From Ianthella basta (taxonomy: Eukaryota > Porifera > Demospongiae > Verongiida > Ianthellidae): a stretch of DNA of 64,000 nt. Each line of letters begins with the position of its first letter. Positions within the stretch are counted from its first letter, which is position 1. The stretch spans positions 5,308,012-5,372,011 of the forward strand of contig OZ025878.1 in assembly GCA_964019415.1 (NCBI GenBank). Direction: 5' to 3'. Below the pieces are notes generated by a model. That model was given only the letters and a program-made list of their open reading frames with translations. It made no database searches and was not told the DNA's origin. The translations under genes and the position numbers were made by a program. Shown piece by piece: positions 484 to 39,300 of the stretch.

Positions 484-3400
484 CTTCATTATCTGTAATG
501 AAGACAGTAGCTGTGTTATCAGGTCCTGCAGACACACTGCAACCTCCAGGATAGATGGTAGAGATGGTGGCAGTGAAGTTCTCGGCTTTGGCTTCATAAA
601 CACCGTCATCAATAATTGGAATGTGCACTGTGGCATTGGTGCTTCCTGCCGTGAACATCCCATTATATGATCCTGGCAAATAGTCAGATGGAGCTGGAGT
701 GTATGAAATAAAACAAGTATACAGTATGTGAGTACAACTGAAGATAGTCAGCATACAAGTGATGTATATACTGTATGATGTTATATGTTGGAACACTATA
801 ACGAGTAGGTTGTACAGCCTACATGGAGCTGAACTAACACACTACACACAATCAATATACAAAGTGTCCTCAATTGGTGCACGGTGCATCTACTGAGTGT
901 CAGTGCTTCATGAAAACAGTTCACCTTCGGCTGATCCATCGACTGTTTTCACTTCCACAATGTAGTCAATGTTAATTGGTGCACTAGCCACCAGAGTAAG
1001 GACCACTTCTTCATCATTGTCATCACTGACATTGTACTCGGTTGGGTTGAAGCCCACTGATATGCTGACTGTAGTAACTGTTGTGAATTATCAAAAAATA
1101 TTGCAGAATACACTCCATTACTGTACAGTCAGAAATATAACTTCACGTCTCCTATGAACAGTTATTAAATGGTGCACAACTTCACATCCTCACTCCTCAT
1201 GTGTATTCCCATACACCCTAATGAATACTGGCTACAACAACAACTAAGGTACAGTATGAAAGCAATGATGGGACACCACACACAATCCCAATTCCAATGT
1301 GGAGTATGTGAACAAAGTGAGCTAGTATACCACAAATGCATCATCCACTATATTGATGGTTGCTGTGACATCATCTCCTGCAGAAACACTGGCAAATCCA
1401 GTGTTGTCAGTGGAGATGTTAGCAGTGAAGCTCTCTGGACCTTCCAATTCAGTATTATTCACAATAGTGATGGTAACCGTGGCAGTGGTGCTTCCAGCAG
1501 GGAATGTGACACTGTACGGTCCTGACGTGTAGTCAGATGGAGCTGGGTGGGAGGATGACAAACATTAACACTAGTAAGGAAGACATTCAAGCCTCCAAAC
1601 GTGAACAATTACGCTGTTCAGAGCTACTGTACATATATATAAGTGATTTAGCGGCAATGTATATTACATAGAAGTGTATCATTCTGACTTACCAGTAGCT
1701 GTGCCATCTTGAGTGAGAACTTCCACTGTGTAGTCAAAGGAAGCAACCCCTTTGGCAGTCAGGTTAACTGTAACAAAAACATCACCCTCATTCACTGTGT
1801 ACTGGGTTGGGTTGAAGTTCACAGGGACATATATATAGACAGGGTCATTGTCAATGATAGTTATTCTGACAATGTCAGTGTCTCCCCTGCTGACACCCAG
1901 GGAGGAGGCGTTTGCTGGGATAGTCAGAACTGAGAAAAAGGTCTCACTGAGTTCAGAAAAAATATCGTCTATGATGGGGATGGTCACAGTAGCTGTCGTC
2001 TGTCCAGCAGAGAAATTTGCCTGGAAGCCTCTTGAGTAGTAATCTGCACCATCTGGAGAATAAATTCCAAGTATAAACATGTATAACAATTGCATTAGAG
2101 CAAGCCCCATATCACACTTCAACTTTCATGTAACTAAACTGCAGTCCATACAGACATTTTAAGGTCGGTTGTCGATCGACGCCGACAACGGGTACCAGAG
2201 TTGAACGCATAAGCATTTCTATATAACGTCTATAGTTTGTGATCTACAGTATGTGAACACTAGATTTTAAAATTATCCTGTAACTAAGTGTATGAATCCA
2301 TAGAAAGTCTGCCAGTGCTTCCCAGATCCTAGTACTGGTGTGGACATCTGACTCGAAAAGGTCTATATCACTGACCAAGCATAAGCATAGTCTAAGACAG
2401 TCAGCATGCATATGATGTGCATTTAGGTTGAAACACTAACAGAACAAACTGTACTGCATGATCATGACATAGAGAGTTAAACTAGCACACTACATACATT
2501 CAATTTATAAAGTGCTTTCAACTAATGTAGAGTGTGTCTACACTGAGTGTGAGTGCTTCATAGTTCACCTTCAGCTGATCCATAGAATGTGCCCACATCC
2601 ACAGTGTAGTTACCTTCAAAGGGTGCACTGGCTACCAGTGTGAGCATCACTTCTCCATCACACTCGTTGACAATGTACTGGGTTGGGTTAAACTGCACAA
2701 TCACCTCGTCATCGTCAAGAATGTTGACAGTGGCTGTGTCAGCTGAGACTGCAGACACTCCCAAGTCGGCAGATGCTTGGGGAATGCTCAGAGATCCGGT
2801 GAAGGACTCTGTTCCCTCAAGCACATTGTCATCAGTTATAGGAATGGATATACTAGCTGTTGTTGATCCAGCCTGGAAAGTAGCTGTACATGTGTAAGTT
2901 CCACCAGTGTAATCCTCTCCATCTGCAATGACGAAGGTATTGAGTACAATTCAAGTAAAATGAGTATGTCATGCAGTATAGAGTAAAACACGTCACCCAC
3001 AATGTACTACATTGACAGATCTAATCCAAGTAGAAGTGTACTAGGGATAAGTGATACCCTAGTTACACAATAATAATTGCGATAAATGGAACTGGTAATT
3101 GTCATAGCGCAAAAATTTTCTCTACCGATACAGCATTTCAGCAGTATATCGCGAAGAAAAGCTTCCTTTCTACGTTGCTTTGAGTGTTTTCTTTGTAAAT
3201 GACACACATTGAGTGATTTAGTGTTCTTTCTTCCCTTTGTTCACTTTCCGTGATTACGTCTCTAGCTAACCCTTCTCAATACAATACTGTGTGAGTGAAC
3301 ACTAACTCTTGACGTCATAGAACCATCATCCTGTGCAGCACTTGCAACGAGAGAAGCTGGAGCAGTGGCAGCAGAGATGGAATGATGAGAGAGGGAGAAA

Positions 3401-5358
3401 TATATATGCCCATCTTGACCCCAGCCATTTATTCTGATTGCAGTGGAGACATTGGGGGTGATGGGGCCAGAGGCATGCCATGGTCACTTTGGCGGACCTC
3501 AGCAGGCATATTGTGGTCGCCACTTCAGAGCCACTGTCCCATCTGTACCTTCTACACCATTCTAGTCCAACGTGGCAATGCAGTGGCCATATACTGTATA
3601 TGCATCTTGGGACAGCAGAGAGGAACTCTGCTGCTCACTGCTAGTAGCGTGATTCTTACATTGGTTCAGATGAGTTTGCTGAAATTGGCATGTTTAATTA
3701 TTTACTTATATCAGATTCTGTAAAAATATATTATAATCCTTGGTTATGGTATGAATGTAATAGTCATCTTATAGCCATTCTCGACATGTCACATATTCAC
3801 ATTATCCATATTCCCCTGATTGTTACTATGTCACTCATTCTTTTGAACAAATGCAATGTAAGTGCAGAACAGAATAATTATTGTATTTCTGTATTCAAGT
3901 GCACTTGAGACCACTCAAGAGTGGTGATGATTAAAACATTTCTTGGTAAAACCACAGCATAAAGTATGAGTACAGAAATGATTGAATAGTAAATTTTAAA
4001 ACAAATTGCATTATAATGATACGTTCCATAAACAAGTAATATGTATTACAACATTCCTTCTTGCTCATAGTCTCCAATGACATACACACCCCATGCTCTC
4101 TCCATACTACCATCCTACCTTAACCTTTTCTCATACACCTCAGGAGTAAGTTTCACTCACTATATTTTCAATGCCCCAAACTAAAACTACACAACTATAA
4201 AACTGTGTGTACATGTGAAGTTAACACATCCCTCACCAACAGCTGTGCCATCCTGTGTAGTGACTGTGACAGTGTATGCTGATTGGGCTGCAGAGCTGGC
4301 TGTGAGTGTGAGTGCAGCATTTCCATTGTCTTCATTCACGTTGTATACAACTGGATCAAACTCAACAGTGATGGTCATGGCTACAGGAATGGGGAGGGAG
4401 TACTGACAGATGAAATATGCTTTACTGTCATTGAATAATGTCCCTATTAACAACTGTTATGCATATTTTGCACAAAATTTACACAGTTACTTACCTAGAG
4501 ACATGTACACCAAAGGTAAACCTTATAAACAAGGTACATATCACAGTAGCATGAACATAGAGGCATACTTAGCTTAGATAGCATGAATATGTTAAGCCCA
4601 ATTGACATGCACACGTGCATTGATCATCTCATTCAGAATATATGGCTGTTCATACTTGACTACCACCTGAAGTGATACAAAACCTCCAATACCTGTACAT
4701 ATGAGCAGTACAACAGCCATCTTGCGGAGTGATGGTGGCCTGGAGCTAAAGGCACAAGATTGAAGACCTGGCTACACCTGATGGGATGCCCCAAATGGAG
4801 CCCAGGCAATGGCAGCAGGCTTACAGTGGCAGCACTCCCTGACAACAAACACTGCCCCACCGAACCAAGAACAAACTGATTACACAACACACACAAAGAC
4901 ACGTGCACACAAGCATGCACACACATACACGCACACACTACCATGGCCTGTTCTGCTCTACAGCTACCTATAATAGTCACACTATCCACTACAACTATGG
5001 ATGTAACGGTCAAAGCTCAGGCTGTCAGTTGCAATTGCTGTTCTGATCCAGGCCTATGTCTATGCGTAATCCAGGCCTATGTCTATATGTACATTATGCG
5101 ATGCTAGCCCTCCCTAACTGTAGAACCAACTGCTATACATTCAGGGCACTGAAGAGCACCACTCTGTTCACCTGATTTTGCAGAAGAGGGCAAGAGCGTG
5201 CAGGAAAGAGTCACAGATTAAATTGTTGTAACTGGTAGTTTAGGGTGGGAGTCAAATGACTATTGAAAACACTCTCGTACACACACACGCACACACAGGC
5301 ATGCACACGTACACACACACACACGCACACACATGCACACGCACATGCACACACACAC

Positions 5359-5420
<62 letters not shown>

Positions 5421-5686
5421 TTTATTAAGAGTTTCACTAATTAACAGCATTTGACGTAAATCAAGAATGCTACATCAGTGTATTGTACAGAGCACCAGCA
5501 GTAACTACAAGTAAAGACAAAATGTAGCTAACAATATTAATTGCAGGTGCAATTTTTGCTAGTACAAAGCTACTTACTACAACTCTAAGCACTAGGATCT
5601 GTATAGCTACTACTCTGACCTTGTACAACTCCGCTGCAGATGGCCAGTGCCAGCAAGACAAGGAAGAGAGCTCTCTGTGACAACAT
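484..5686 (-). CDS. Secreted or membrane Calx-beta repeat protein, 3' end outside window
   Basis: Read on the minus strand, exon 1 (5686-5620) encodes a signal peptide starting MLSQRALFLVLLALAICSG and ends in phase 1. It joins in phase to 4380-4237, then 2922-2569, 2052-1693 and 1542-1331, followed by 1068-925 and 693-484. These encode at least four Calx-beta units. Each unit is cut by an intron after a DGTA(T/V)G or GSAEG turn and carries the usual TVNE, GSTTATV..I.DD and (I/V).DDD signatures. Calx-beta domains bind Ca2+ in extracellular adhesion proteins and Na/Ca exchangers. The MLSQ start is chosen because the gene at 9,675-23,324 starts the same way, although an in-frame ATG lies 84 bp upstream. 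The junction 1331/1068 does not keep phase, so a small exon is missed there or the gene is damaged. The last exon seen ends at a donor (GAAG|GTTTGT), so the gene continues left of the window. Whether it also ends in HRM/GPS/7TM cannot be seen. Confidence 0.82.
4722..4884 (+). repeat. SINE-like repeat, truncated copy with tRNA-Leu-like head
   Basis: The head (GGTGGCCTGGAGCTAAAGGC then AAGATTGAAGACCTGG) resembles the D-arm and anticodon region of tRNA-Leu. The following 100 bp match the better copy at 61,490-61,769, including the shared CAGTGGCAGCAC and CTGACAACAAAC blocks. The B-box is eroded here. It lies in the intron between exons 1 and 2 of the Calx-beta gene. Confidence 0.55.
5165..5290. 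repeat. Local duplication, partner of 6,300-6,430
   Basis: This stretch and 6,300-6,430 share an alignable series: a CACCTGATT.TGCAGAAG block, then GTAACTGG(T/C)AGTTT..GGGTGG, then AAAAC and a CA-rich tract. On the minus strand both begin at the position of the acceptor of the IgGFc exon in the intact gene (22,340). They are the flanks of tandemly copied 5' ends of the signal-peptide/IgGFc gene. Behind the acceptor here the reading frame soon stops, so no domain remains in this copy. Confidence 0.6.
5280..5419. repeat. (CA)n microsatellite with GC-rich interruptions
   Basis: About 140 bp of CA dinucleotides with CGCA, TGCA and a CGCGCG stretch. Open frames across it read only His-Thr or Cys-Val repeats and are not genes. 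Confidence 0.97.
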
Positions 5687-6124
5687 CTTGGCTGCTCCTC
5701 TAAGATAAAGAGGACAACCAGTGCTGTAATACAGACAGAGAGGGCAGCACTTCCTAACACCTGCAAGCATTTATAATATAGCCAGTACACAGGAAGTAAG
5801 GTATACTCTAATTAGGCCTACTTCCTGTTTAGGATTATGCATAGGTGACTGTGATATCTTTAATCTACAGGCAAAAGTAAATATAGTTAGAGTTGCATTT
5901 ATAGGCACTCGTGAGTCACATGTGTGTGTATTTCACAATGCACATTAACAGAAGCAAACCAGAGATCATATGCATGTTACATTCTCCCATCCTGCTTATT
6001 AAAGGCACTGAGGTCAGACCAGTCAATGTTCAATAAGCCAAGCATGGGTTGGTTGACTCAGCTTTTACATAAGATCAGAACTATATACATGTGCCAAGCT
6101 TCTTGGGAGAACTATTCTTATCTC

Positions 6125-6340
6125 CTTACCTTTTTGCACAATAAAAGTGTTATTGACAACTCCTGTTACCCTTGTTCCTACAATTTCATTGTAAGCAACC
6201 CAACATGAGACTGTTTCTTCTTCTAGTCACCAACAAAGACGGGTCTAAAGAATCTCCCTGGTTGGGTCTGCAACCAGGAATTCATTGTCTTCAGGGCCAT
6301 GGCTGACACCTGATTGTGCAGAAGAAGGCAAAATTATGCA
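6125..6340 (-). pseudogene. Relic of the IgGFc-binding exon
   Basis: Read on the minus strand this aligns base by base, with small indels and substitutions, to the first 190 bp of the IgGFc-binding exon at 22,340-22,150. It starts from the CAG acceptor and GTG(T)..GCCA and runs through the blocks coding for GGTGACTA, GTCTCAT..TGGGTT and GTTGTCAATAACAC. Indels break the frame, and the rest of the 1.37-kb exon is absent. It lies upstream of the signal exon of the neighbouring Calx-beta gene, so it belongs to a decayed extra copy of the 5' half of the family. Confidence 0.7.
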
Positions 6341-9674: not shown

Positions 9675-10347
9675 TCATGGTTTGCTTCCATTACTGCTCC
9701 ACAGTCCATGATCTGTTGCAGTATTGGCTAGTCCAAAGCCTTCTTTCTCCTTATCCTCTTGTTCATCATCAACCTCCGGCTTTACAAATTCGTCTCCCTC
9801 TGCTGCCTCCTCAAGATCTTCCTCGCCAAATTCTATTGTAATGGTTGCAGTCATACCATAGGCTGTTGTTGTAATGGTGATATATTCATCTTGATCATAA
9901 ACACTGGAAATTTGCCCTTCACTCTCTTCTTCAATGATATTGAGTTTCATGTCAAGATCTCTTCCTTCCTTGATACTGTCCACAACTGCATTCAGTTTAT
10001 GATCTTCAAATCTTGCAAAGGGCTCCGAGTCTGTTGGAAAACTGCCTCTCCTTCTACTGTCCATCCAGGTGGACTTGCTGGAGCGAGTGCCTCCTAGAAC
10101 AATAGGTTTAGAGGGTTGTATAAAAAGTTGCAATTCACAGCATAATTTAAAAAGAGCTCTTGTAAAATGTCTTGCTTTTTCCTGCTGGTGTGCACTTCCC
10201 AACACAGCACTATATACATCCACATATACTCAGATTTGGATTATTATCTAACCACATAATATTCTGGAATGGGCTCTAGTGCAAGGTTGACTGATCTAAG
10301 CTTAACTCACCTAGGGATGAAGAACTATGTCCATTGGTCAATGATAA
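9675..10347 (-). other. Cytoplasmic tail of the adhesion GPCR
   Basis: A 37-bp exon (Ser-rich, GHSSSSLGG) and the last exon encode about 150 residues after TM7. The tail holds an RSSKSTWMDSRRRGSF basic/serine patch with possible kinase sites, an ITITTTAYG stretch and an acidic end (EEDLEEAAEGDEF, DDEQEDKEKEG). No PDZ-ligand consensus is evident at the C-terminus (SNGSKP). Confidence 0.8.
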
Positions 10348-13300
10348 CTGTACAACAAATGGGATAACATCTATTCACAATGCTAGTTCAATTATAAATA
10401 ACAGCACACTGAAGCTTCATATGTGCCTTGTTACAAAGCAAAATGCTTAATTAACAGTAATGACTGACCGACTTCCAGGAGCTTGGAAGTTTGTCTTTGA
10501 TCTTTCCATACATCTTCTCATGTCTCAAAACATGAAACAGAAATATGAACAAACCCTGCAAGACGATTGCAGAATGGAGCAGTTAATAATGACTAGCAGC
10601 CTTAATTACCATCAACTTTACCTACAGTCTAACCTCTGAAACATTGCCATTGGTACGTAAAATACCTTCTCACCTGAAACACATTGGCGATGACAAAAAG
10701 GTAGGCAAAAACTATTCCTCCGTCCCCAACTACAAACAGTCCAATGATCCAGGTGAAGCCCAGCACAGGGAGAAGGATAATGGTGGCCTTCAGCAGAAGC
10801 CTGTGAATGGAAACAAAGACTTTGATATTTAAAAGGTCAAGCATGAACAACCAGTTGGGGGAGCAAAATGCATCCTCCCAGCCAATAGCAGGAAGATCAC
10901 AGAAACAAGGAGGATGAAGCAGTGTCACTCTGGGTAACACAGAAGTATATAACTTAAACAGCTTGCATATACCTGCATTTGAAATTAAGTTAAATGCCCT
11001 ACAATCTTTACAATTCCTACATCTGACAACATCTCTGTATGCTGTAAGATTCATCTACAGATTAGCCTATGTACTATCATATAATTATCTTATTAAGAAT
11101 TTTGAAAATGTATCAGGATATTCTTACAAAGCTTCAACCAGTGAAGAGACCTGCACAGAAGTAGTGCTATTTCTTCATACATGGCACCAGAACATACACA
11201 ATCCACCACCATCCCTACACTGACTGCATTTCCATGGTGTCTAGTTTGCTTCAGCAATTGCAGAGGGAAACTCCCGAAAATGACAAGGCTTCCTAAACCA
11301 TGGAGAGTTCTAACCTGATACACAACCAAAGATGCATGTTCTCACAAAGGAAAGGGGCACACATTACAACATACTGTACACCAAGATTGTGCAAATGCTA
11401 TATAAACCTACTTGCCCACTTTCATGTACTTCTGTCTCTTTTCATCTCTCTTATAGAACATCTTTGATGCCACACGACACTTGGACTTGGCCAGTGACAC
11501 CAAACTGATTATCAGCAATACAGCATTCACCTGCATACAAGTGTGTAATTATACACACAGTACATATAGCCATGTAAACACAAACACACATACATACAAG
11601 CCAGTACAGTCATACAAACCGCCAGCAGTGCACACTTGGCAGGCTATTTTTATACATGCACATAATATTGTTATAACTTATATTTCAAATTGATGCAAAC
11701 ATGCAATTTAGGACCAGCAAATGGTCACAACTAACTGCTAACTCATGGCAATAATTGTGTGCTGAATCAATCCTAATCCCTACAAGATTTTAAATGATTA
11801 TTATAGAATAGTGAATAAAGTCACTTTCGGTGGTATTACATGTAATGATATATATACATAATTATTAAACGAAAACTTAAATTTACTGCACTATAATGTA
11901 CATGCACACCAAAATCACCTCATTAACCATTGATATTTTGATGACATGCCATCCACGACAGGACAATAGTTCAATAATATACAATGATACTAATAATTGA
12001 AAGAAAAAGCTCGGAAGTACACATGGTAAGGAAAGAAGGGGGAAGGAAAAATCCGTATTGGTATATAACGAGGGAATGGATTAGTGGCTGGTGGAGGTCA
12101 CCTGTGACCCGGCTGCTAAAGGGTCGGCTAAAGATCTGGAGGTTGCCGTGCTGGTCCGGTTCACTGCCATTTTCCCCTTCCCCCCTTCTTTCCTTAATAC
12201 CGTGTGCAGTTCCAAACGTTGTCATTCATTTGTGTCACCATGGCACGTAGGCCATCTTAATTGACACCAATAATTGTAGTTCAACAGTTAACATTCAGGA
12301 GCAGTGAACATGCATGCATGAGTATAAATATATTGCCAGTCAGCATTGTTATGAACACTCACCACAATAATGGTCGCCATTGGTCCAATAAAAGCAAAAA
12401 TGACTCCCTTTTCACTGGGCAACCAACACCTAAGGGGAAGTGCATGCATGAATACAATGGGTAAGATACCATAATGTAACCTTGTTCATCCATTCCCAGG
12501 AACTAACGCCTTGATATTTTCATAGTGAGGGTGACTCTGATCAAATGATGATCTAATGAAATAGTAATCATGGCTCACTCCTGCAGTAATCGCCACAATA
12601 GGAATGGGAAGACCTGATGGATAGGAGAAGGGTTTCACTGTTATACCTTACACAGGTAGGTAAAGTAAGGGTGCAGGGAAATGGCCCAATGTCAAGCATT
12701 AAAATACATTACATCACAAGATAAGTAGGTAAGAAAGGGAATTAGCCAAAGCTAAGGCACACATCTGATTGCATTGAGGACCTGCACTGTAACATGGACT
12801 TTCAATCCGAGAATATCTTTGATATAAATTGTACCCTGGTATAATTATGATTGCAGATAAGACAACATATCCTCTAAATGTAAATACTCAATTTACAACT
12901 GACGAGCTGAATGCCCGCCCTACGGGCAGGTTCCAGCTTATCGCTAGCCAGTGAGTCGGTACCTTGCTAGTTTTGAACTATCTGCACAGGTAGCAACGGA
13001 AGCTGGCTGCTATAACGACGGTAGAGTTTAATTCGAACGTTTGCCGACAACGAATAAGATCTTCCGTAATCGAAAGTCCCAGAAACCAATAATTAAAAAT
13101 GGCGTCTCGGCCCGCGGGTAAAAAGGAAGCGCTTTCTTCGGCTGCAGGGCAGCTAGGTGAACGACACCCCTCTAAGCTCATGTCCCCCCACCCCCTTAAC
13201 TGGCATGGCTCGTATCAAGTACGCCAATGACCGGTAGTGGAAGGGCCGGTCGATAATGTTAAAAATGGCGTATCGGCCCGCGGAGAATTGACGAAGGACA

Positions 13301-16300
13301 TCTCCCTTTTCGGCCGCAAGGCAGCTAGGCGAACGGCACCCCGCTAAGAACATGTCCCCCGAGTCCCTCCACTGGCACGGAGCGTCTCGGGCCGATTCCT
13401 GGGAAGGCGCCGATTTTATGGCTGAACAAACATACATCCAAATTCTAGATCCCGTGAATTATAGTAGGATTAACCATAAACCTTTATGAGTACAAAAATT
13501 CATCCTACATATATACCAATGCTGATAATGCTCACCCCATCCCAGTACCAGGTAGAGGTAGATCCAACTTCTATCATTTGCTCCAAATGCTTTCACCAGA
13601 AGAACGTAAATAAGAACTGCTTCACAGAGTGTCCAGGAGAAGGTAGCCAGGAAGAAGAAGTGCAGCAAGGCTGTCACGACCTTGCAGGCATACTAGTGAA
13701 AGGAAGAGAGGAGAATGCAACATTAATAGAAACGTTTAGATAAAGCATACTCTCCAGATGTTAAAACATTGAATTATGCTTAATGCCATGCAGAAATTAA
13801 TGCATAAATAATTATAGCAAATTGCTACCAATGGTTTAGTATACCTGTCCCTTACAATGTTGGCTGTGGCTGTCTGTATTCCAGTGAGGAACAGGAGCAG
13901 TCCCAAGGAAAGGGCAATGCACAGGTTGAGGTGGACAAAGTTGTGGAGCTTTTGAATTAGCTCCTTTCTGCACAGTTAGAGGAACATGAGTGAGAACTGG
14001 CCTACAGACCATAAAGCAGACATCAACTCACCTCAATGACAAGAAGAATATGATGCAGGCAAGCAAGCAGAGAAAGGAAATGCTGCAACCTACGTATGTG
14101 ATGTAGTCTAATGGAAGCTGCAGAAAATAGTAAATGGCGCAGTGATTATGTACAGTGCTTGTACAGGCAAGTCAATGAAGTTTTGAGTAATAAACAAAAA
14201 GGATTGCATGCACTCACTGGGTCTCCCACTACTGGCACGATGCTGACCAGAACTACAAAACTGGTCAGATGTGATGTACTACAGCGAACATGTGTGTCAT
14301 TGATGACCTCAGTCTCCACCCCTCTGTAGGACCACCCTCCAGTCTGGTTGATCCCTCCAGTGAAGTTAAAGAAGGCACAACGGAACAGCTTCATCATTCC
14401 TGATGGGACAGTGAGGTTTTGGGCTCTCTTCTGCAGGAGGTAATAGTTTGATTCCAGTCTCCAAAGACATTAAGGTAAATGAATGCTGAGGTATTCATAT
14501 TCATGACTGGAGTCTACAATTACATGTGGTTGCAGTTGGACTGTAACTTGCAACATACACTTGCATGTGCAACATGCAAATACTTACATTAATAGGGAAC
14601 ATCACTTCCACTGTCTCATTGGTGTCCACCTCCCCACCATCATAGCCAGGAATCTGACTTGACAGTACACAACTGGCAAGATGGGTATCCTCTGCCTCAC
14701 TGTCACTGTTTGCAGCAAGAAATATTGTGTGTGAAGTAAAATGCATCTGAATGCATTAATTATTAATCCTTTTGCACCTTTCCCACAACAGGATTCATTG
14801 TAAACTTTACACATTCATAAAATAATGTTAGATTGCACATAACCTGTTATCACATATCACTGCACTACATACAAGTGAAAGCTTGAAGGCATCCCAACCA
14901 GCTAGCATATGTGCATGTGCATGATCTGTATTCTCTTGTTTCCCTTTCACCTACAGCACGCACGCATGTATGATCAAAATTCTTCATCATTCAGTTTAAT
15001 ATTCTTTTATAACTGCTTGAATGAACCCAACAATGTAAATCCTCCATGCATGTCTCTACTTTTACATCATTTCTTCTCTCTGTTTTGTTTTGTACTGTGT
15101 TCCCTTTTCTTTTCCCCTTTTCCCCTTTACTGGGCACCTGGGAGAATAGCCTACAGCTAAAGGCTCGCCAGTCTAAATAATGATCCCCTGACCCCTGACA
15201 ATAGCAGCACACACATGCGCGGACACTTACATTGCTTCATTTTCTTTGATCACATCACTGGGCAGATAGTTCTCTATGTTTTTCATCACAACATTCACCA
15301 CCTCAACAGTGACGTTATCTGGAGCATAAACCATGCATGTATAATACTTCTTTAAAAATGGACATCATGCAGACACATGAAAAATATTAAATTATGATCA
15401 ACTTACCGGAAGCCATTTTTAACCCCATTGCAGCTAAAAGGAATGATCGAGGCAGCCGAATCTGAGGCAGTTCTTCTGACTTTCCAAAAGATGGCAGAGT
15501 GGCAGTGGGTTCTGGGAACACTACAGCTGTCAGATGACTGCCAAACGAGAATTGCTGCCCTATCATTACTGAAGGGACAAAAGGACAGATTGTGTTTAGT
15601 ACAGTTGTATATACAAAGATTAGCAGAAGTTTAAAGGTGAATTCTAATTCCATAAATACTGCTTTGAAAACACTGTACTTAACATTCGCAAACCTAAATT
15701 TGCTCTTGAAACTGCAAAGGAACCCTGTTTGGACAGTGTAGATGTAATTATATTTGCCACACGTTCTGTGCTGTGAAGGATGTTGGTAGCAGGACTTGTT
15801 CTGCCGTCTTCTGGGTCAGCTGAGGAACTCTGATAAAATACACAAGATGCCGAAACAATGTCAGTTGCACTTACTGGTATAAAGCCTTTGTTGTTAGGTG
15901 TAAAAATGTGTGAAAAGGACTGAAAAGATCACTAGCCAAGGCAGAGGTTTAACTGTCTGCACAGTTATGTATAATATATAGCTAATAAATCCTACCAATG
16001 CTCAGCGCACCGTCCTATTGCAGCATGTCAGTGCTCACCTGTGCAGTAGCTTCAAATGCTGGTGCATTACGTTCATCAAGTACATTGCTCAGGATGTCAG
16101 CCACCACCTACAGTGTGAAGTCAATCAAAGCACTCGATAGTACATCCACACAGTATTGTGTGATGTACTCACTTGTTGAGTCTCGTTTGATTCTTCGTCA
16201 AATAGTCCATTGTTCTCACCAAGGCTACAATCAGGGTGAGAGTTATATGTGATTGAAACATGCAGGAGCTGAACAATTTGTACTTTTGTTCCTTGGATAC

Positions 16301-19089
16301 TGTACAATGGTACCAAAACAAAACACTTACTTGGCCACACCTTCCATAAATTTGGCTACTGTATTCAAGTCCTGAGGAAGAATTGAAATTTCATCACCAG
16401 CTGATGCTTGCAAAGCTGCATTCAATTCCTGCGCAATATTCTGAAAAGCCTTCCGTTGACCATCAGTCAAAGTACCACTGAACCCTTCCAAACTCTTCAA
16501 AAACTCTTCTATCTGCATAATTATGGACATTGAACTGTTTTGAATGGTACCTAACGTCCACTTGAAAGTGTTATCATCACATACAGTGAGTATGATCTAT
16601 CGTACCTTTATTCTTACTGCTCTGAAAGCCACTGATTCACATTCTGAGGCATTAACAGAGCCCCACACACTACCAGCCAGACATCTCCTGTAGGCCAGGC
16701 TCATCCCAGGTGTGTCCCCCTCTCTTTGACAAGCAACAGACTGAGTGGAGTCTGGAGCAGTAGCAGGCCACTGGATCCTCCACACACTGTCCTCCTCATC
16801 GGGACACCAACCAGTTATACTAGGTGTAGTCACTGTTGAAGAGACAAGCATGATTGCACGGTGAGGAAAGCACACAGATCACTCTGTGTTATAGAGTAAT
16901 TTAAGCCACAATAATGCACAGGTCTTCACACACAACATGGATAGAAGTGGTTTTCACAGCAGATCTAGATGCAGTGATGTACAATTATAACGTACTCCAG
17001 CAATAAGTAGATTGGAATGTATATTACAGAACGTTACTAGGATTGGTACATATTTAATGTTAAAATTGATACTTTCATGTGAGGCTGTGCCCTAGCTGGC
17101 ATGCAGCAGGGTATCTGCATGAACTGACCTTACCCACAGCTGACAGTGTTGTTAGCAATAAATGTCATGCACTATAATTGTTATTATAGCTTTTCTTGCT
17201 TATATTTCTTTCACCTAGAGCACCATCACTTAACTACTGCTTGCTAGTACATGACAAGGCAAGCAGTAGTTAAGTGATGGTCCTTCAGGTGAAAGAAATA
17301 TACTATTATACACAATGATATGTGGTGAGTACATCATAATAAACAGAGGTACCTTGGTCATCGTCACCGATGGTTATATTGATAGCCACTGGTTCCTGTT
17401 GTCTGTTCTCATCCTGGACTACCAGTCTGAGGTACTCAGGAGGCTTGCCAATGGTATCATTAACAATCTCAAGATACAAGTCCTGGGTAGTGTCTTCCTG
17501 TGGTTCAAATGTAACCATCGCAAACATTGGCTTGATGCCATCTTCTATAAAGGTACACCAGAGAATAAGAATAGAAGAAAGGACCTCATTTATTAGATAC
17601 ACCTTGGCTAATATGTCACAAGCATTACTCATCCAACATGAGCATCTGCAGAGCATGTAATGACCAAGTGCACATACACACCCCCATCTGTGGGTGACAT
17701 GCAACTGCTGATGGATTACCTAAGGTACCTATGTCTTTAGGTTGTAGCATCACTGATCATGCTGATCATACTCGCAGCTCAGTTCAGCTAATTAAATTAG
17801 TGTCATGAGTAATGCATATAGACTACACATACCATCAGAGATGAATTGAGTTTCAATCTGACAGACAAATGGCATTTCAACTTTCCTACTGATAGCGATG
17901 ACCACGGTAATGTCCCCTTCTGACTGATTAACAGTCACACTATTCTCTACAACAAAACAGATCACATCTGCAAAAGTGAAGAGAGGGAGATGCATATCTG
18001 TAAAGATTCATACCTCATATATAACATTCACTAGTTATTATAATAGTATTGAAGAGTAATTCCAAATTGGAAAATCTATATAGTATCTATCCTGTGAGGG
18101 ATGAATCAGAATCATTTACTACTGCTTGCTATTCGCACGGTATATGTCACCTGTGTCATCATCGTGAATGGTGACGTTGGCTCTGCCCATTGGAGTCAAT
18201 GGAGCCCGCGGTGGTACAACAATATCAATGATGAAGTTTTGATCCCCCTCAAATATTTCATCATCAATGATGGTAATATTTGCACAGGCCATATTCTCAT
18301 CCAGTGCAAAGGTGACTATGTACGGACCTCCATCATAGTCCCCATCGGCTACAGAAAGGTAGTGAAACGCAAGTCATCACACAACACACACACACATGAA
18401 TGCATGTGTATATTTACCTACAAATGCAAATTTATTACAGTATGAGTTCTTCTTCTTGAAAACATTGTTCCGACAGGTAATGACACTAGCTAGTGCATTG
18501 CACCCACCAACAATATCCTACAGCTTCCTTGTGTTATATATAATTATACTACCTTTTCTGATCCTTATTGGTATAGCTATGTGCATTATGTCATGCATTA
18601 TATGAACAATTGCACAAAACTTTGGTTAAGTACCAAAATGACCTGTTGCAGTCCCATCACGGGTGTGTAGCTCCAAACTGAAATCTCCTATGCAGTTTCT
18701 CTCCACCATCAAGCACACTTCCACTGTGCCACTCTGAACATCCTCAGCCACAGAGTACTGGTCAGAATTGAAGGTTATTGCGCACACTGCATGTGTGCAA
18801 GCAGAATCATGATCTGATCACAATGTGAGACATTACAAAAAGGAAGATAAGAGCACTGAGCAAAAGATTACACTATGTATATTACGTATTATAGTAACAT
18901 TTGCTTGGTTATTCATTGAATTTGACCCACAGTGGTCGCTGTACAAGTTCCCTTTCTGCCACAACAGACAGACAGCCATGACAAATTATATGTCATTATT
19001 ATTGAGACAAAATAGCATCCATGCACTGCAGTGGACCTTCGTACTACAGGCATACTTCTTGCATGTACCAATGCACATGCACGCTCTTG

Positions 19090-19163
<74 letters not shown>

Positions 19164-22100
19164 CAGGAAGTGAGAATATACTCAACAGACACATTGATGG
19201 CTACAGTTATGCAGAAGTGCAGAAAAGCTTTGAATAATGTCCATAGTGTAACAGCATCACAATAAAACAAGGCACTAATGATATACGCAGAATTATGAGT
19301 AGATAAACTAATGCCCAATATTTTTAGATCATGACAGGAATTGTCCCATAGTAAGGAATTCCAGTGCAAATGCAATGAAAATGATGACTATAACAAAGTG
19401 CATTTTATGAGACAATCATTTCATGGTCTGTGTGGCACTGTCATGGCAACCACATTAGTGTGTGCCCCCACTTTCATGGACCATAACTGAACAGTGAACA
19501 CCCTGCAAAAGTAAGTACCTTACCCAATTCATGAGGAATCTGCATGGCAGCTGTGCTAGACCACATACAGCTGTGCAGCTATGTGAAGGCTGTAGGGGTG
19601 TAGATGTGTGTGCGTGTCTGCCTGGTAACAGAATCTTAGATACAGCATTCTTAGGCAACCTTGTAACCACTATGGGCAGTGGTTTCCTAAGCTACAGATT
19701 GAGACGTGTCACACAGTAATTGTGTACAGCTTTTGACCTATTCCTATAGATTGGTAAGCGCTGCCCACATTTTGGGAGTGTTTGTAAGATTGTGTTAAGT
19801 CACTAGATTACCTAATAGGAGATATGGGCCCTCAGGGAGACACACCATATTAGGTCATCAACATGTACAATTAGATTAATTTGCAGCTAATCATGCTAAA
19901 TGAACTTACAGTTAGATAACAGAAAGAATGTGGGCAGAGTATATACCAGTAGCTACTACAGAAGTGTCAGCTAAACAGGTAGGTGTAAGAGTCTTGCCAG
20001 CATAATATCTCAACTTACATTTGGTGGGTGCACAAACTGACTGTCCTTCTCTCGGGATTAAACTGATGTTGAGCATGTCATGTGGTTCACTGACAGGATC
20101 ACTGAATGTTATGTTGCAATTGGCCTTTCTGGCACCAGCAACAAAGCAACAATTAGCTAAAATGGAGGTACAGCAATATCACACACAACATTCACACATA
20201 CACACATGTATGCACATGTATCATGAATTTAGGTGACAAGGAAGAAGCCAGATACAGCCATAACCATATCTTATAAGTACTGCACATAGCTAACATTTCT
20301 AACACATACATAATTGTCAGTTTATATAGGTAGAATACACAATCACATAATAGTAAGTGTTCTCAAGTTCACGCACTAAAGAAAAAGTATAATTATATAT
20401 AAACTTATACATGAGACTAACTACCATTGTGTATGTTACAAATGTGCACACAACATGACTTAGTTTGAAATCTCTCAGGTACAAACTGTTATGCAAGTTC
20501 AAATAAGGAGCTTAACAGGCATGCCTATGAGGAGTGAGAAGTAGATCTGTTCATTAGGAGACTATACATCATGGAAGAGCAGTTGAGATCTGAAGCTATA
20601 ATTTAATGCATGAATGATTGAGCATGCAAGAAAGCCTTACTCTGTGCTGTTACATTCATCACTCCCACTCCGATACACCCAGCTTGTCCCACTGGTCCAG
20701 ATCTGGTAGCAGTGAACTGCACTACATCTTCCCCCTCTATCACAGTTAGGCTGGATTCATTTAGACAGTAGGTTGTTGCTAAGGAGTAATTAGGTAGGGA
20801 AGAGAGATAGATGAAATGACTATGAGTCTTGCACAAAAGAATAAAGTAAGAAGGAATGTGAGTATTGTATTAGCTACAGGTAAATACGTATATAAATGGA
20901 GATATTTCATAAAATGGAATATTGCAAGATATTTATCTGTAAATATGAATGAACTGCAATTCCTACCAGCAGTTGAATCCAGTTCCAATCCAGCGACAAA
21001 ACCGTACGAGTTCCTTTCACCCCAACCATAAACACTTAGCATGAACTTGCAAGAAGGGTTGGTATGTGTCACCTTGTGTACTCCAGTGTTAACAGACGGG
21101 TCAAACTGAGCTGCACGGGCAACAATGAAACCTTCACTACCTATGATATCAACAAAGGTTACACCAATGAGTGGGTTTCCATCAAATCGTAAACCACTAG
21201 GGCCACATCCGACTGGGACAACCAAATTCATCTGAGCATCAAACTGCACTGGTACACCTTGAGTGTCGTTACTCTGGCTCTCAAAGAAGACGGTTTCATA
21301 GTCTTTGGAATACTGCCGCACTGGAGGGACCATACTCATGAAGGGATCGGACTGGAGGTTATCATCATAGCCTGAACCCAAACTGTACTGCACCATCAAA
21401 CATGGGTGATTGCACTCAACACAACAGAAGTGATCATTCTGATAAATGAACTGTTTGAAGTCTCCTGCATTCTGCAAGTCAATGGTTTCTGAATGGGAGG
21501 AATTTCCTGCCTTATCATTACATGTTACTTGGCACTGAGTACTATCTTTGCTAGTCATGATGCGGTACCCATCTGCACTGCGAGTTCTGAGCGGCACAAG
21601 GAAGAACTTGAATCCCCAGGTGTGTGTGGGTGGAAAGTACTCCACCATGTGCTCACAAGCTGATGTATTGATTGGAAGGTTTGTACATTCATGGCCACTA
21701 GTGAGTGTGAGTGGCTTGTTGGAGGTGATTTGGGTGCCAGTGAGATCTGTACGACTTACACCTGCAAACAGGAAACCTTTGTTAGGAATAGTAGCAGTTG
21801 TTTCACGACCAGATAAAAATTTGCCTGGAGCGATACTGGCACGAAGCAGTACTTTGGGATTGATTGTAATGGTTGTGTCGTCCTCATTGGTGATAAAGCC
21901 AAAGAATGACTGTGCAAGATTCGAGCCTTCGAGGTTGCTCGATTCAGCAGACATAACAAAGTACTCATATGTTCCAGTCTTAGTCACAATCTTGGGCAGA
22001 GCAAGGAATGCATCAGTGGAAGCCGACTCTTCATTGACTCCCACAACTGTCAGCAACTTGTCATCAAATGCTTTGACAGTGATGGTTTTAAGCGGGTCAC

Positions 22101-22965
22101 TAGTGATGCTTCCAGAGATTTCAAGATCTGTTGGCAGAGTTATTCTTCTCTCACCTCCTTTTTGTACGGTATAAGTGTTATTGACAACTCTTGTTGTCCG
22201 TCCTCCTGTGATTGTTCCATAAGAAACCCAAAATGAGACTGTTCCTTCTTCATCTGTAGTCACCAACAAGATGGGGTGTAAAGAAGCTCCAATGTTGGGG
22301 CCAAATACAACCTGGAATTCGCTGCCCCTGTGGCCAACACCTGATTGTGTAGAAGAAGGTAGCTATAGGCAAGAGTCATTGATAATGGGAATGTTATTGT
22401 AACAGGTACATGGGACTATTAGTTCTACACACATCTGCACTTGTACTACAATACATGTTGTATCTTCACAGTGAAGTCTTGGCTTTGTGTACCCTGTTAA
22501 TGGGGCGAGCCAACAGGTGGAAACAAGACTGGTAGCCCCATTGGCAGCAGGGATGCCAGTCTCCTTTCCCCAATTGCATGGCCCACTTGGTGCAGTAAAG
22601 GTACTCATTTATGTGCTTGCAAGACCAGTGAAAAAGGAATTAAAGCTGGACAACAGAATTGAATGATGGCATCAGAGTATCCATCCTGAATTTTTGGCCA
22701 CAGAGTTTACCACATGCACTATCAGCACCACAGTATCTTGGAAGCTAGCATAAGTTGCACAAGCCATGCTATACACTGAGACATGCACTAGCAGCTAAGA
22801 GAGAATTACACAAGTTGCTATATTCTCCCCAATAGTTTGCTGTTCACAAGCATGATTGGACTTGTATCCAAGCAATCTTATAAACCAAGTTTTAACTTTC
22901 TGAATGCCAGGCTGCACACCTGTTACCTTTCTTGTTCACATAGTTTCTACCAAACACTGGGACAA

Positions 22966-23058
<93 letters not shown>

Positions 23059-23324
23059 CACAGCACACAGCACATAGGTCTTGTGGGAAAATCACTAGAG
23101 ACTAACATTTCATGCGAGAGTGCAAGAACTCACATCATCAGTCTGATGTATTTACAGCAGTTATGAGAACAAGATACAAGAGTGGCTTGTTTTCATAGTG
23201 AATTGTACTTTCTTCCACTTCAGTGCTACCAGGTATGTGCAGGTACTACTCTATACTCACCTTTCACAACTCCAGAGCAGGTGGCCAGTACCAACAAGAC
23301 AAGGGGAACACTTTGAGACAACAT
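9675..23324 (-). CDS. Adhesion-type GPCR with IgGFc-binding, Calx-beta, HRM and GAIN/GPS domains
   Basis: Twenty-seven exons on the minus strand keep phase: 23324-23261, 22340-20967, 20778-20641, 20156-20019, 18786-18643, 18348-18151, 17967-17833, 17544-17353, 16832-16606, 16512-16331, 16224-16173, 16107-16039, 15829-15694, 15568-15407, 15318-15231, 14705-14588, 14430-14218, 14117-14032, 13967-13856, 13692-13536, 12613-12508, 12429-12363, 11530-11412, 10800-10674, 10555-10469, 10347-10311, 10093-9675. They sum to 4,947 nt, exactly 1,649 codons with the stop. Approximate residues: signal peptide 1-22, IgGFc-binding 23-479, Calx-beta 480-571, 572-685 and 686-794, HRM 800-860, GAIN with GPS 870-1,205, 7TM 1,212-1,485, tail to 1,648. 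Such receptors sit in the plasma membrane and self-cleave at the GPS; here the ectodomain suggests binding of glycoprotein or mucus-like ligands. Least certain are the donors at 12,508 (GTTAGT) and 11,412 (GTAGGT), chosen because they alone keep phase. Confidence 0.88.
12012..12214. mobile_element. MITE-like inverted-repeat element in intron
   Basis: About 30-bp imperfect terminal inverted repeats: GGTAAGGAAAGAAGGGGGAA on the left and the reverse complement of CCCCTTCTTTCCTTAATACC on the right. It lies between exons 12429-12363 and 11530-11412. No coding sequence. Confidence 0.65.
12905..13470 (+). repeat. Unclassified 565-bp dispersed repeat, copy a
   Basis: Begins GCTGAATGCCCGCCCT with a short GC hairpin and ends GAATTATAGTAGGAT after a GAACAAACATACAT-type tail. 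It is nearly colinear with 48,480-49,043 and shares modules (GCTGCTATAACGACGG, ATTA.AAATGGC) with 31,556-32,305. Here it sits in the receptor intron between 13,536 and 12,613. No coding potential was recognised. Confidence 0.8.
14218..16512 (-). other. GAIN domain and GPS proteolysis site
   Basis: Eight exons (16512 down to 14218) encode a helical then beta-rich stretch typical of GAIN, ending in the GPS: CAFFNF, GGWSYRG, VRCSTSHLTSFVVLV. The HL|T tripeptide used for autoproteolysis is intact, as are the first Cys, the GGWS tryptophan and the third Cys. The second and fourth Cys of the usual four are replaced by Val and Thr. Cleavage is expected but not shown by the sequence. Confidence 0.85.
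15128..15182 (+). repeat. 3' fragment of the SINE-like repeat
   Basis: Matches the 3' part of the copy at 61,490-61,769 (GGGCACCTGG.AGAATAGCC, then AGCTAAAGGCTC and TAAATAA). Lies in a receptor intron. Confidence 0.5.
16606..16832 (-). other. Hormone-receptor (HRM) domain exon
   Basis: Encodes TGWCPDEEDSVWRIQWPAT, then SVACQ, YRRCLAGSVWGSVNASEC. This is the W/C-rich spacing of the extracellular hormone-receptor domain (G..CP......W......G......C.......R.C...G.W.....S.C) that precedes the GAIN domain in many adhesion GPCRs. The incoming phase joins DDDQ|VTTPSITGWC. Confidence 0.8.
17201..17300. repeat. Foldback (long inverted repeat) in intron
   Basis: The left arm (TATTTCTTTCACCT.. then CACCATCACTTAACTACTGC) and right arm (GCAGTAGTTAAGTGATGG .. 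AGGTGAAAGAAATA) pair over roughly 40 bp with a 13-bp spacer. It is a compact MITE-like foldback between receptor exons. Confidence 0.85.
17353..20778 (-). other. Three Calx-beta domains, each split across two exons
   Basis: Exons pair as N-half/C-half: 20778-20641 with 20156-20019, 18786-18643 with 18348-18151, and 17967-17833 with 17544-17353. Signatures include LTVIEGEDVVQFTATRSG, FNSDQYSVAED, TRDGTATG, ADGDYDGGPY, IIDDEIFEGDQNF and INITIGDDDQG. The first unit is cysteine-rich (CCFVAG...CNITF) and diverged. The intron position after DGTATG matches that in the neighbouring Calx-beta gene, which supports common origin. Confidence 0.85.
19093..19160. repeat. (CA)n microsatellite
   Basis: Pure CA tract of about 68 bp in the receptor intron between 20,019 and 18,786. 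Confidence 0.98.
20967..22340 (-). other. IgGFc-binding (FCGBP N-terminal) domain exon
   Basis: A single 1,374-bp exon encodes about 457 residues. Recognisable family pieces are the SNKPLTLTSGHEC core, CEHMVEYFPPTHTWG, FFLVPL.TR, and near the end CKFMLSVYGWGERNSYGF.AG. This is the N-terminal region of FCGBP (IgGFc-binding protein) and many invertebrate secreted proteins, where it occurs in mucus and adhesive proteins. It follows the signal-peptide exon directly (phase 1 join), so it is the outermost part of the receptor. Fusion to a seven-helix receptor is not an arrangement I know. Confidence 0.85.
22968..23056. repeat. (CA)n microsatellite
   Basis: Pure CA tract of about 88 bp in receptor intron 1, between the signal-peptide and IgGFc exons. 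Confidence 0.98.
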
Positions 23325-25095: not shown

Positions 25096-28418
<3,323 letters not shown>

Positions 28419-36340: not shown

Positions 36341-39300
36341 AGTGTGTGTATGTGGTGCGAATAGTTCATATGATCTTATGGTATTTTATAAGTATGCAAA
36401 TGCCATTGTTCCGAGTGCATATAGGTTGCCTAATGGAGCATCTGCGCAGCTGTTGAGCTTTGCTGCCATACAATATAATGTATACTGTAAATATGGAGGT
36501 TGATTGCAAAAATGGTTAACCCTTTGGCTCTGTATCAACCTCAGTGCTCGGTTGATTTAAGTGCCCTCAGTCAATATTTTCGCAATCAACCTCCTTACAT
36601 GCGTTATAATATATATAATAATAATTATTACATAATCATGTACTCCTTCCCACTGCATGCACCTTAATTCAGTATGCTTGCTTGCACATTGTATGATAGT
36701 AATACAAATATTCATATGCTCCTTAGAATCTCAGCAAAAGTCCGTGGTTAGAGTGCAACCAGAGCAGAAGAGTGTCTATGACACTAACCCCCCCGAGGCA
36801 ACATCTGCCCCTGCCCTAGCTCAACAACTGCTGCATGGAGTGTTAACAGCAGCCAACTACAAGAGCAGGTTCCGTAAGCTGATGTACCTTGAAATGGAGC
36901 AAATTAAGAACAGGCTTCGTACTGATGTTGGACAGTGAGTTTCGAAATGGAGGATTGATCAACTTATCTTATTCTTTTGGAAAGTTTCAGCATAGCTAGA
37001 TTCTTGAATTATTGTCACTGGATGAACTGGGGGTTATAATCACATTCTTTCTGTGTAAAACTAAATCACAATAGCTTACAGTACATTTTAATGGTACTCA
37101 GACACAAATTCAAAGAAATTCAGTCAGTCAAGTTAGCTAATGAAAAAGGCCAGAATCAGGTTGGCCTGTGGTGCTCATTCCTGAGGCAAAGTTGCCTTGC
37201 TGAACTGCCAAAAGACAGTCTCTGGATGAGGTAGGTGGTTACTGCCCCCTTCCTCATAGCCGTCGGCAGCTGCCCATCATTGCCAGTACTAAAATTGTTA
37301 TCAAAATAACTGAAAATATGTTCAAACAGGGTCAAACCAGTGGTATATGGTTTGTCCGATATGAGTCCAACCATGCAGCTGCTCATAATTTTTCAATCTT
37401 TTCCACCTTTATCTGCGCATGCATGGGCAGCATTTAAGTGTTATAGATCCCAACGATTGGGCAAGGAGCGGCAGCGAATCAGTTTAACTATTCGTACTTG
37501 CGTCATCACGCGTCTTCTGGAAGTAGTTGGCAATTTCTGACAATGGCCGAGAAAACGTCGTTTGGTTATTGGGTTTGTCATCTCGTAGCAGACGTTCCTA
37601 AAGGCCGGCAGTGGATGCGGCGCGTAAGCTGAACGTAAGCTTACTCACTGACAGCCCCGTCAGCCACAACGTTTCCCAGAGCGGTGTCTTAAGCCTGTTC
37701 CCAGCTCAGAACCAGTTCCTTTCTCGGCTCTGGTTCGTAGGCCGTTGCATGCCGGATTGTTACGTTACCCTGTTTGTCGAAGCAATTAAGCCGAGCGAAC
37801 TGTGCATCGTATGTTGTGGAGTTAGCTACTATTGTTATCGCAGCTGCAGCTTCTCTGCTATAGACCACGGGCCCAAGCCACGCCCATGCTCTAAATCGCT
37901 ATTTAGAGCATAGGCGCGAACGCCGCGCGTGCCACGCCCATGCTCTAAATCGGCATTTAGAGCATAGCGCGAACGACGCACGTGCCACGCCCATGCTCTA
38001 AATCGCTATTTAGAGCATAGGCGCGAACGCCGCGCGTCGAATTAGAACACAGCTAGACGAAATAGACCACGGCGCGAAACAACACCCGGGGTGTCTACGA
38101 CGTTTAGAAATCTCGTTTAGACGCACGTTACCATGGCAACGGGATCTATGTACTGTTAGATTTCCTGTTTACAGCATTCCTCATGCCATGCATGGTACAC
38201 TGAGTTAAAGCATTTTCATTAATTATTCCATTATTCCATTTAATTTCAAAATTTAAACTTCTTGCCTTTACATGATGGAGTTAATATCACTGTGAGAAAT
38301 CTGGTTCAAAACCTTTTTGAACTTTTAGGCCAATCTCCGCCTAAACAATTGCATACGTATAGGAACAATCTGTTTGGTGATGCAGTCCAGGACAGTTGAC
38401 AGTCCTGGATCGAACTTGCATTCATCACATGAGCACATACAGCTCTAGTAGGCAACAAAATATATAAATTATCGCAATTTTGTATGTTCAACCCTGACTA
38501 TATATGCATGATGATGAAGATTTCTTGTTTTCCACAGTATCACAGGAATAGTTTGAGCCTTTCTTCTACCACTTCATGATACTGTATTTGTGGTTGGGCT
38601 TGATATATTACTGTGTTCATTGTGCTAGAGTGGGTGTAGGTGGCTAAGTGATTTTTGTGTTCCTATAATAATACGCATTAATTTTCTTTCACCATTTATA
38701 TCCAATTGTAATGAATACTTCGTTTCCTTCCCATGTAGATGTGGTCACTGCAGATATGGCCATTTAAATTTCCAAGTGAGCATGGTTACATACAATTCAC
38801 TTACTCTGACCATGAGTAGTGAAACTGGCGAGTTTGTCAAACAGAGCTCTCAAGATGTTGTCCTCAGTTGTTGCCAAATTGGGCAGCCTATGCTGGTACT
38901 CAAAGCAGTTATCATTGATGCCAAGGATGGGCTGAAAATGCGAGTACTTCCAATTGCAATTGAAGGGATAAACACCGAGCAACAGTTGCAGAAGATCATG
39001 CGTGGCAAGTACATTTGTGCAACATTCAAGCCCCATCTGACGTACTGGGAATCTCTGCACAATGCCATTGAAGGTCTACCATCTCGCATTATTTCTCAAA
39101 TTCTCTTCCCGGTGGAAAGGGATTTCAATGTAGATGGGAGGTATCGTAAGGACCTTGCTCATTACAAACCCCATGATCAGATGCTGGAGCTAGATGATCT
39201 CTACCAGACAGATGCCCTTAATGCAGCCCTGAGGTGTCCTCCTGGTCCACCATTCTTGCTCACAGGACCTTTTGGCACTGGGAAGACTCGGCTCATTGCT

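Follow-up and report, generated by a model that had tools for sequence, protein, structure and literature searches.

Adhesion G-protein-coupled receptors (GPCRs) are grouped into families that are distinguished largely by their heads, and the origin of new heads is an open question in the field. This question is raised by a gene, designated P1, on the minus strand of a 64,000-nt stretch of the genome of the sponge Ianthella basta (contig OZ025878.1, designated C11, positions 5,308,012 to 5,372,011; assembly of 209 Mb in 96 contigs). This stretch is referred to as the window, and coordinates given without a contig or locus name follow its numbering. A first-pass annotation had described P1 as an IgGFc-binding domain fused to an adhesion GPCR: does a gene of this form exist, and where would such a head have come from? 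In our assessment, which includes the origin and the mechanism proposed below, P1 is likely to be a class B2 (adhesion) GPCR gene with an outermost IgGFc-binding head. The name "IgGFc-binding" of the family PF17517 is a label and does not by itself demonstrate a function.

Gene structure and domain architecture of P1

The gene model was obtained by chaining exons by script from a list of open reading frames. It extends from the start codon at 23,324 to a stop codon ending at 9,675 and comprises 27 exons, all on the minus strand; all 26 introns are of the GT-AG type, and the spliced sequence of 4,947 nt encodes 1,648 amino acids plus the stop codon. The 27 phase-compatible exons and the single frame of 1,649 codons reported in the first-pass annotation were in this way rebuilt independently, the stop being included in the latter number. 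To close the chain, the weak donor GC|gttagt of exon 21 after position 12,508 is required; a donor is present at the same codon and in the same phase in the three paralogues P2, P3, and P4 described below (gtgagt, gtaagc, and gtgagt).

As judged by sequence, the order of the parts is head, Calx-beta-type units, HRM, GAIN domain with an HL|T site, seven-transmembrane (7TM) domain, and acidic tail. Exon 1 (23,261-23,324) contains the start codon and a signal peptide, MLSQSVPLVLLVLATCSGVVKG, which was assigned by eye; a similar first exon is found in P2 and P3. Exon 2 (20,967-22,340) encodes the whole head within 458 codons as a single exon of phase 1-1 and matches PF17517 over the full profile (1-297) with an E-value of 4.2e-48 and 164.6 bits, compared to a cut-off of 25.6. 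Exons 3 (20,641-20,778) and 4 (20,019-20,156) are the first and the second half of a Calx-beta-like unit, exons 5 (18,643-18,786) and 6 (18,151-18,348) are the halves of a Calx-beta domain that scores over cut-off as a single stretch (PF03160, residues 574-684, 3.1e-21), and exons 7 (17,833-17,967) and 8 (17,353-17,544) form a third unit. The HRM is encoded by exon 9 (16,606-16,832), and the GAIN domain (PF16489, residues 894-1118, 1.5e-7, 31.5 bits, over cut-off) is distributed over exons 10 (16,331-16,512), 11 (16,173-16,224), 12 (16,039-16,107), 13 (15,694-15,829), 14 (15,407-15,568), 15 (15,231-15,318), and 16 (14,588-14,705).

Exon 17 (14,218-14,430) carries the GPS (PF01825, 2.9e-7, 31.3 bits, over cut-off) and reads RCAFF...RCSTSHLTSFVVLVS. 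It contains the sequence HLTSFVVLV, in which the HL|T motif adjoins a tethered-agonist sequence; the role of TSFVVLVS as tethered agonist is our assumption, carried over from known receptors. HLT is also found in P2, P3, and P4, and the GPS cleavage motif is given as H-X-S/T in the accessible part of PMC13062082. The 7TM domain is of the secretin type (PF00002, residues 1213-1472, 8.3e-51, over cut-off). It starts with the first helix in exon 18 (14,032-14,117), continues through exons 19 (13,856-13,967), 20 (13,536-13,692), 21 (12,508-12,613), 22 (12,363-12,429), 23 (11,412-11,530), and 24 (10,674-10,800), and ends in exon 25 (10,469-10,555), as indicated by Pfam and by the boundaries in the paralogues. 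Exons 26 (10,311-10,347) and 27 (9,675-10,093) encode the cytoplasmic tail, the latter its acidic part and the stop codon; this last exon shares 36% and 33% identity with its counterparts in P2 and P3, respectively.

The first-pass annotation had suggested a Pfam search with the predicted protein, and in this search IgGFc_binding and 7tm_2 were both over cut-off in the one frame. From its domain list, GAIN and GPS were likewise confirmed, as was one of the three Calx-beta domains that it had claimed; the HRM and the other two Calx-beta units are taken up below. The nearest solved bodies are those of ADGRL3 (8e-53, the best match), ADGRD1, and ADGRE5. In FCGBP-type proteins, the IgGFc domain is followed by repeats in the order VWD-C8-TIL. 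These were absent from the nine Pfam families reported for P1 at E ≤ 1, and so was the EPTP repeat.

Paralogous receptors in the same genome

PF17517 has 71 matches in the genome, many of which are clustered on contigs C11, C6, C18, and C4. The family searches scored the best candidates, i.e. 74 of 74 for IgGFc, 150 of 208 for GPS, 150 of 427 for 7tm_2, 150 of 689 for PTP, and 66 of 66 for VWD. Heads were paired with bodies using all 71 IgGFc places together with 51 listed GPS and 15 listed 7tm_2 places; since these are part of the GPS and 7tm_2 places, additional pairs may exist. At least three further loci show P1's order of parts, namely P2 and P3 on C11 and P4 on C18. A GPS follows the IgGFc exon on the same strand at a distance of 6.6 kb in P1, 29.5 kb in P2, 20.5 kb in P3, and 6.0 kb in P4, and same-strand GPS matches are also present at five bodies on C6, where the closest head is 2.1 to 9.9 kb away.

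The paralogues were delineated by tblastn with the P1 exon peptides as queries. P2 is located on the minus strand of C11 from 5,298,393 to about 5,262,500, and its identity to P1 amounts to 75% in the head, 71% in exon 3, 48% in exon 4, 76% in the HRM exon, and 89% in the GPS exon; a signal exon, the GAIN domain, 7TM exons with 68-95% identity, and a tail exon are also present. P3 is located on the plus strand of C11 (5,915,908 to 5,941,898) and shares with P1 73% identity in the head, 57% in the HRM exon, and 63% in the GPS exon, with further matches to the signal exon, the 7TM domain, and the tail. In P4, the corresponding values are 31% for the head, 66% for the HRM exon, and 78% for the GPS exon, and the 7TM domain is also matched. 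In all three paralogues, the corresponding exon passes the HRM cut-off (28.4 bits in P2, 33.0 in P3, and 30.5 in P4). Pfam recognises one Calx-beta unit in P1, and by tblastn, 20 places each in P2 (between 5,270,073 and 5,290,714) and P3 match P1 exon 6.

Exact agreement of the splice boundaries with the expected codon and phase was observed for 18 of 22 exons in P2, for 17 of 20 in P3, and for 7 of 18 in P4; the script took the nearest in-phase AG or GT within 30 codons, so that phase agreement is partly built in and the counts of exact positions are the informative part. Spurious rows for exon 26 (P2, P3) and exon 27 (P4) were excluded, and the automatic end of the P2 tail overruns a stop codon. 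For P1 compared to P2, the ratio of nonsynonymous to synonymous substitution rates (dN/dS) rises from 0.18 for the GPS exon through 0.29 for the 7TM domain, 0.39 for the GAIN domain, and 0.44 for the head (456 codons) to 0.67 for the HRM, and in all of these parts it is below 1 for P1 against both P2 and P3. With P2, P3, and P4 present, chance is not a reasonable account of the P1 architecture, and the proposed combination of an IgGFc-binding head with an adhesion GPCR body is borne out both by Pfam and by the paralogues that this genome contains.

Heads and bodies with different histories

Between P2 and P3, the synonymous rate (dS) is 0.12 in the head compared to 0.95 in the GAIN domain, 0.94 in the GPS, and 0.39 in the 7TM domain. 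The head of P4 is 55-57% identical to four heads on C6 and 31-34% identical to the A heads, a group of six comprising those of P1, P2, and P3, of two phosphatase genes described below, and of one unclassified locus; dS is saturated between the P4 head and the heads of P1, P2, and P3. A small tree built from 21 heads separates the six A heads from the rest with a support of 100/100 and places the P4 head with the B heads at 87/77. In an equally small tree of eight bodies (161 columns), P4 groups with P1, P2, and P3 at 100/100. With its head among the B heads and its body with P1, P2, and P3, P4 combines a B-type head with an A-type body. As read from these comparisons, heads and bodies differ in history, and two head lineages sit on one body type. 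The head exon has phase 1-1 in six of six A heads and in P4, as would be expected if the exon had been shuffled. The architecture was probably made by exon shuffling.

A distant receptor subfamily is present on C6. At the locus L011, a signal peptide is followed by an IgGFc domain in one exon, an exon resembling HRM (0.00028, 21.7 bits, below the cut-off of 26.2), a GAIN-like stretch recognised by eye, a GPS reading CGCDHLTHFAILL, and a 7TM domain whose last part is over the 7tm_2 cut-off (23.4 bits). By eye, this head exon is also of phase 1 at both ends. The body is only 34% like P1 in the region of exon 20. Downstream of the heads at other C6 loci, HRM-like, GPS, and transmembrane pieces as in L011 are found; head and body were fully read at L011, and the parts at the other loci are in line and unspliced. 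Two pairs of C6 heads are nearly identical (C6a/C6b 99.8%, C6c/C6d 99.5%), so that recent duplicates or duplicated haplotypes are possible, and C6 was counted as at most three distinct kinds. Upstream of several C6 bodies there are two or more heads, with three in front of a single body and further cases at 992,191 and 1,033,222, which makes the assignment of heads to bodies unsure there.

In the same C6 cluster as these IgGFc-headed GPCRs, three IgGFc exons on the minus strand each have a VWD match no more than about 3 kb downstream (925,198/922,145, 932,652/929,588, and 946,683/943,806). An IgGFc domain followed by VWD is the arrangement closest to FCGBP.

IgGFc heads on receptor-type tyrosine phosphatases

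The head also occurs on a second kind of receptor. Adjoining P3 on the plus strand, the locus L028 (L028:123-8502; C11:5,943,822-5,952,201) encodes an IgGFc-headed receptor-type tyrosine phosphatase. It consists of a signal peptide, a head 72% like that of P1, an exon 3, a Ser/Thr-rich stretch and a hydrophobic helix (both recognised by eye), and a tyrosine-phosphatase part in two pieces that match PF00102 (4.2e-13 and 6.1e-9). In the same row, a second IgGFc-headed phosphatase gene, with a head about 72% identical to that of P1 by tblastn, extends from L031:2404 to L032:570. Both assignments are based on tblastn and open reading frames, that of L028 additionally on Pfam. These gene arrangements suggest a mixing and matching of recognition heads and signalling bodies.

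Between the two phosphatase genes, at L031:309-1126, a remnant of a GPCR end is located (exons 25 and 27, 65% and 42% identity).

Weighing of the evidence and alternative explanations

Several observations weigh against the reading of P1 as an IgGFc-headed adhesion GPCR or against parts of it. The model was derived from genomic sequence alone, and exon 26 was placed by phase fit only, with no credible counterpart found in P2, P3, or P4. In P1, the HRM stays below the cut-off of 26.2, at 14.1 bits when scored within the full protein and at 21.0 bits for the exon alone; exons 3 and 4 fail as Calx-beta in Pfam, although their counterpart in P2 passes with 38.2 bits, and exons 7 and 8 have no Pfam match as Calx-beta. 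A sequence search found no solved structural relative of the head. The usual GPS pattern has two cysteine pairs, one of which, as judged by eye, is missing in P1, and this might lower cleavage. The dN/dS of the signal exon between P1 and P2 is 1.8, based on only 21 codons. P3 has no tblastn match to P1 exons 3 or 4. In P4, no signal exon was found, the first 351 bases of its locus L009 reading N, and head and HRM are separated by about 3.7 kb of poorly recognised sequence, where pieces resembling Calx-beta (17.7 bits) and HRM (20.1 bits) score only weakly and below cut-off. In addition to the small size of the trees, a long-branch warning applies to the head tree (n8, P4), the bootstrap of the body tree is unsettled, and the head-exon phases of the remaining 14 heads were left unsettled by the script.

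Derivation from genomic sequence also leaves room for the explanation that a gene for a short secreted IgGFc protein and an adjacent gene for a Calx-beta adhesion GPCR were joined only by the chaining of exons, and the fact that exon 2 read through its own donor stays open for 62 amino acids would allow such a short form. We regard this as very unlikely, since intron 2 measures only 188 nt and its donor and acceptor phases fit, a similar exon 3 with matching acceptors follows the head in P2 and in the two phosphatase-bodied genes, and the remaining five A heads soon run into a stop when read past the donor (after 14, 2, 2, 2, and 19 amino acids). Even less credence is given to a broken or misassembled gene or a functionless chance chimera: the region is tandem and fast-changing and contains a decayed head in the window (6,095-6,266) and the GPCR tail remnant in L031, but the frame is intact across 27 exons, dN/dS is below 1 in the head, HRM, GAIN, GPS, and 7TM comparisons given above, and the same order of parts recurs at other loci on two contigs.

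A different view would regard P1 as in essence an ADGRV-type receptor, composed of Calx-beta arrays, GAIN, and 7TM, that gained a new head. The 20 exon-6-like places each in P2 and P3 fit this view, but three of four bodies pass the cut-off for HRM, a domain not known from ADGRV1, the EPTP repeat is not among the families reported for P1, and the nearest solved 7TM domain is that of ADGRL3, a comparison in which the 7TM domain of ADGRV may lie outside the solved set. In its favour, the available part of PMC12716839 names ADGRV as the sole metazoan family with a choanoflagellate orthologue. On balance, this alternative appears unlikely, and an adhesion GPCR with an IgGFc-binding head, probably acquired by exon shuffling, is preferred.

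Comparison with known receptors

P1 and its paralogues resemble adhesion GPCRs such as ADGRL3 and ADGRD1 in the GAIN domain, the GPS with HL|T, the secretin-type 7TM domain, and, in the paralogues, the HRM. They differ in the IgGFc-binding head, which was not found on these receptors in the literature matches listed, seen in part, and P1 also in the cysteine pair missing from its GPS. Calx-beta units in the ectodomain, with putative long arrays in P2 and P3, are shared with ADGRV1 (VLGR1), in contrast to the HRM and the IgGFc head. FCGBP and PRIT-type IgGFc proteins are secreted as mucus or glue, whereas in P1 the IgGFc domain tops a membrane receptor.

Among sponges, the receptors of Amphimedon (PMC4302439) and Halichondria panicea (PMC8242945) are, from the parts of these papers available, similar in that they are adhesion GPCRs which carry HRM as well as unusual domains outside the cell. 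The Amphimedon study lists HRM in at least eight receptors as well as SRCR-headed receptors with SRCR repeats, and neither IgGFc nor Calx was found in the accessible portion of its main text. The legend to Fig. 1 of PMC8242945 names IgGFc-binding, Calx-beta, and GAIN as "other domains" of the receptors drawn, without saying on which receptor IgGFc-binding and Calx-beta occur, and it is possible, going by this legend, that the architecture was drawn there earlier. In the excerpts at hand, IgGFc was found neither in the choanoflagellate GPCR paper PMC12716839, which names Calx-beta, nor in the 2026 review PMC13197933. No IgGFc-headed adhesion GPCR is described in the titles and abstract beginnings of the literature matches listed, which cover few subscription journals. 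The earlier statement that no receptor with an FCGBP-type head is known agrees with these matches, the Halichondria panicea legend being the reservation. The IgGFc-headed adhesion GPCR is real, repeated, and, as far as found, undescribed in text. A sponge adhesion GPCR of incomplete sequence was up-regulated after microbial stimuli according to the part of PMC6208332 available.

Neighbouring genes

A neighbouring gene on the minus strand (485-5,686, continuing into L020) has several Calx-beta exons and a signal peptide like that of P1 exon 1 (68%). Its end appears to lie near C11:5,303,773, with no match to a 7TM domain, in a region where Pfam yields nothing over cut-off. Upstream of its signal exon, the decayed head at 6,095-6,266 (minus strand) is a frame-broken A-type IgGFc remnant with pieces of 63% and 71% identity. 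A sibling adhesion GPCR body, unspliced, is located on the minus strand at L029 and L030 (C11:5,238,400-5,258,399), with the HRM over cut-off and a GPS exon of 82% identity. Upstream of it are a match to Sushi that passes the cut-off and a weak one to Ig, so that heads may vary within the family.

The window further contains part of a Ras-family small GTPase gene (25,096-25,533, minus strand; PF00071, 5.2e-17). By eye, long frames at 38,629-39,750, 44,799-48,407, and 53,476-54,072 resemble helicase and RNB-type RNA enzymes, and a CSVCL-type zinc-finger-like frame is repeated at 34,576 and 62,686.

Proposed mode of action and significance

In the model proposed here, the heads would have spread by exon shuffling and later by mosaic exchange or conversion. 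The P1 receptor would be cut in its GAIN domain, the head-bearing fragment being kept on the 7TM part; the head would hold an immobile ligand, such as surface mucus, matrix, or microbes, and the Calx-beta units would serve as a Ca2+-dependent rod. Binding or pull would then expose the tethered agonist TSFVVLVS, and a G protein would be switched on. The sensing of mucus or microbes that the first-pass annotation had put forward would be a candidate role of this kind. The GAIN cut, the holding of a ligand, and the exposure of the agonist are drawn from general knowledge of adhesion GPCRs, and self-cleavage and G-protein signalling of P1 are predicted by this analogy.

A further and tentative idea, to which we give somewhat less than even weight, is that the IgGFc head exons are phase 1-1 cassettes dealt among adjoining GPCR and receptor tyrosine-phosphatase bodies. 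The same surface cue might then be read via a G protein in one receptor and via dephosphorylation in another, and the cluster would continue to exchange heads in the manner of a system that recognises self and non-self or microbes.

The head swap can be read within one genome, in the conflict between head and body relationships at P4 as well as in the symmetrical phases of the A-type head exons and in two kinds of receptors that carry the same head and adjoin each other. The gene set lets one ask what IgGFc-binding domains bind in an animal that presumably lacks antibodies, and whether G proteins sense surface mucus, matrix, or microbes.

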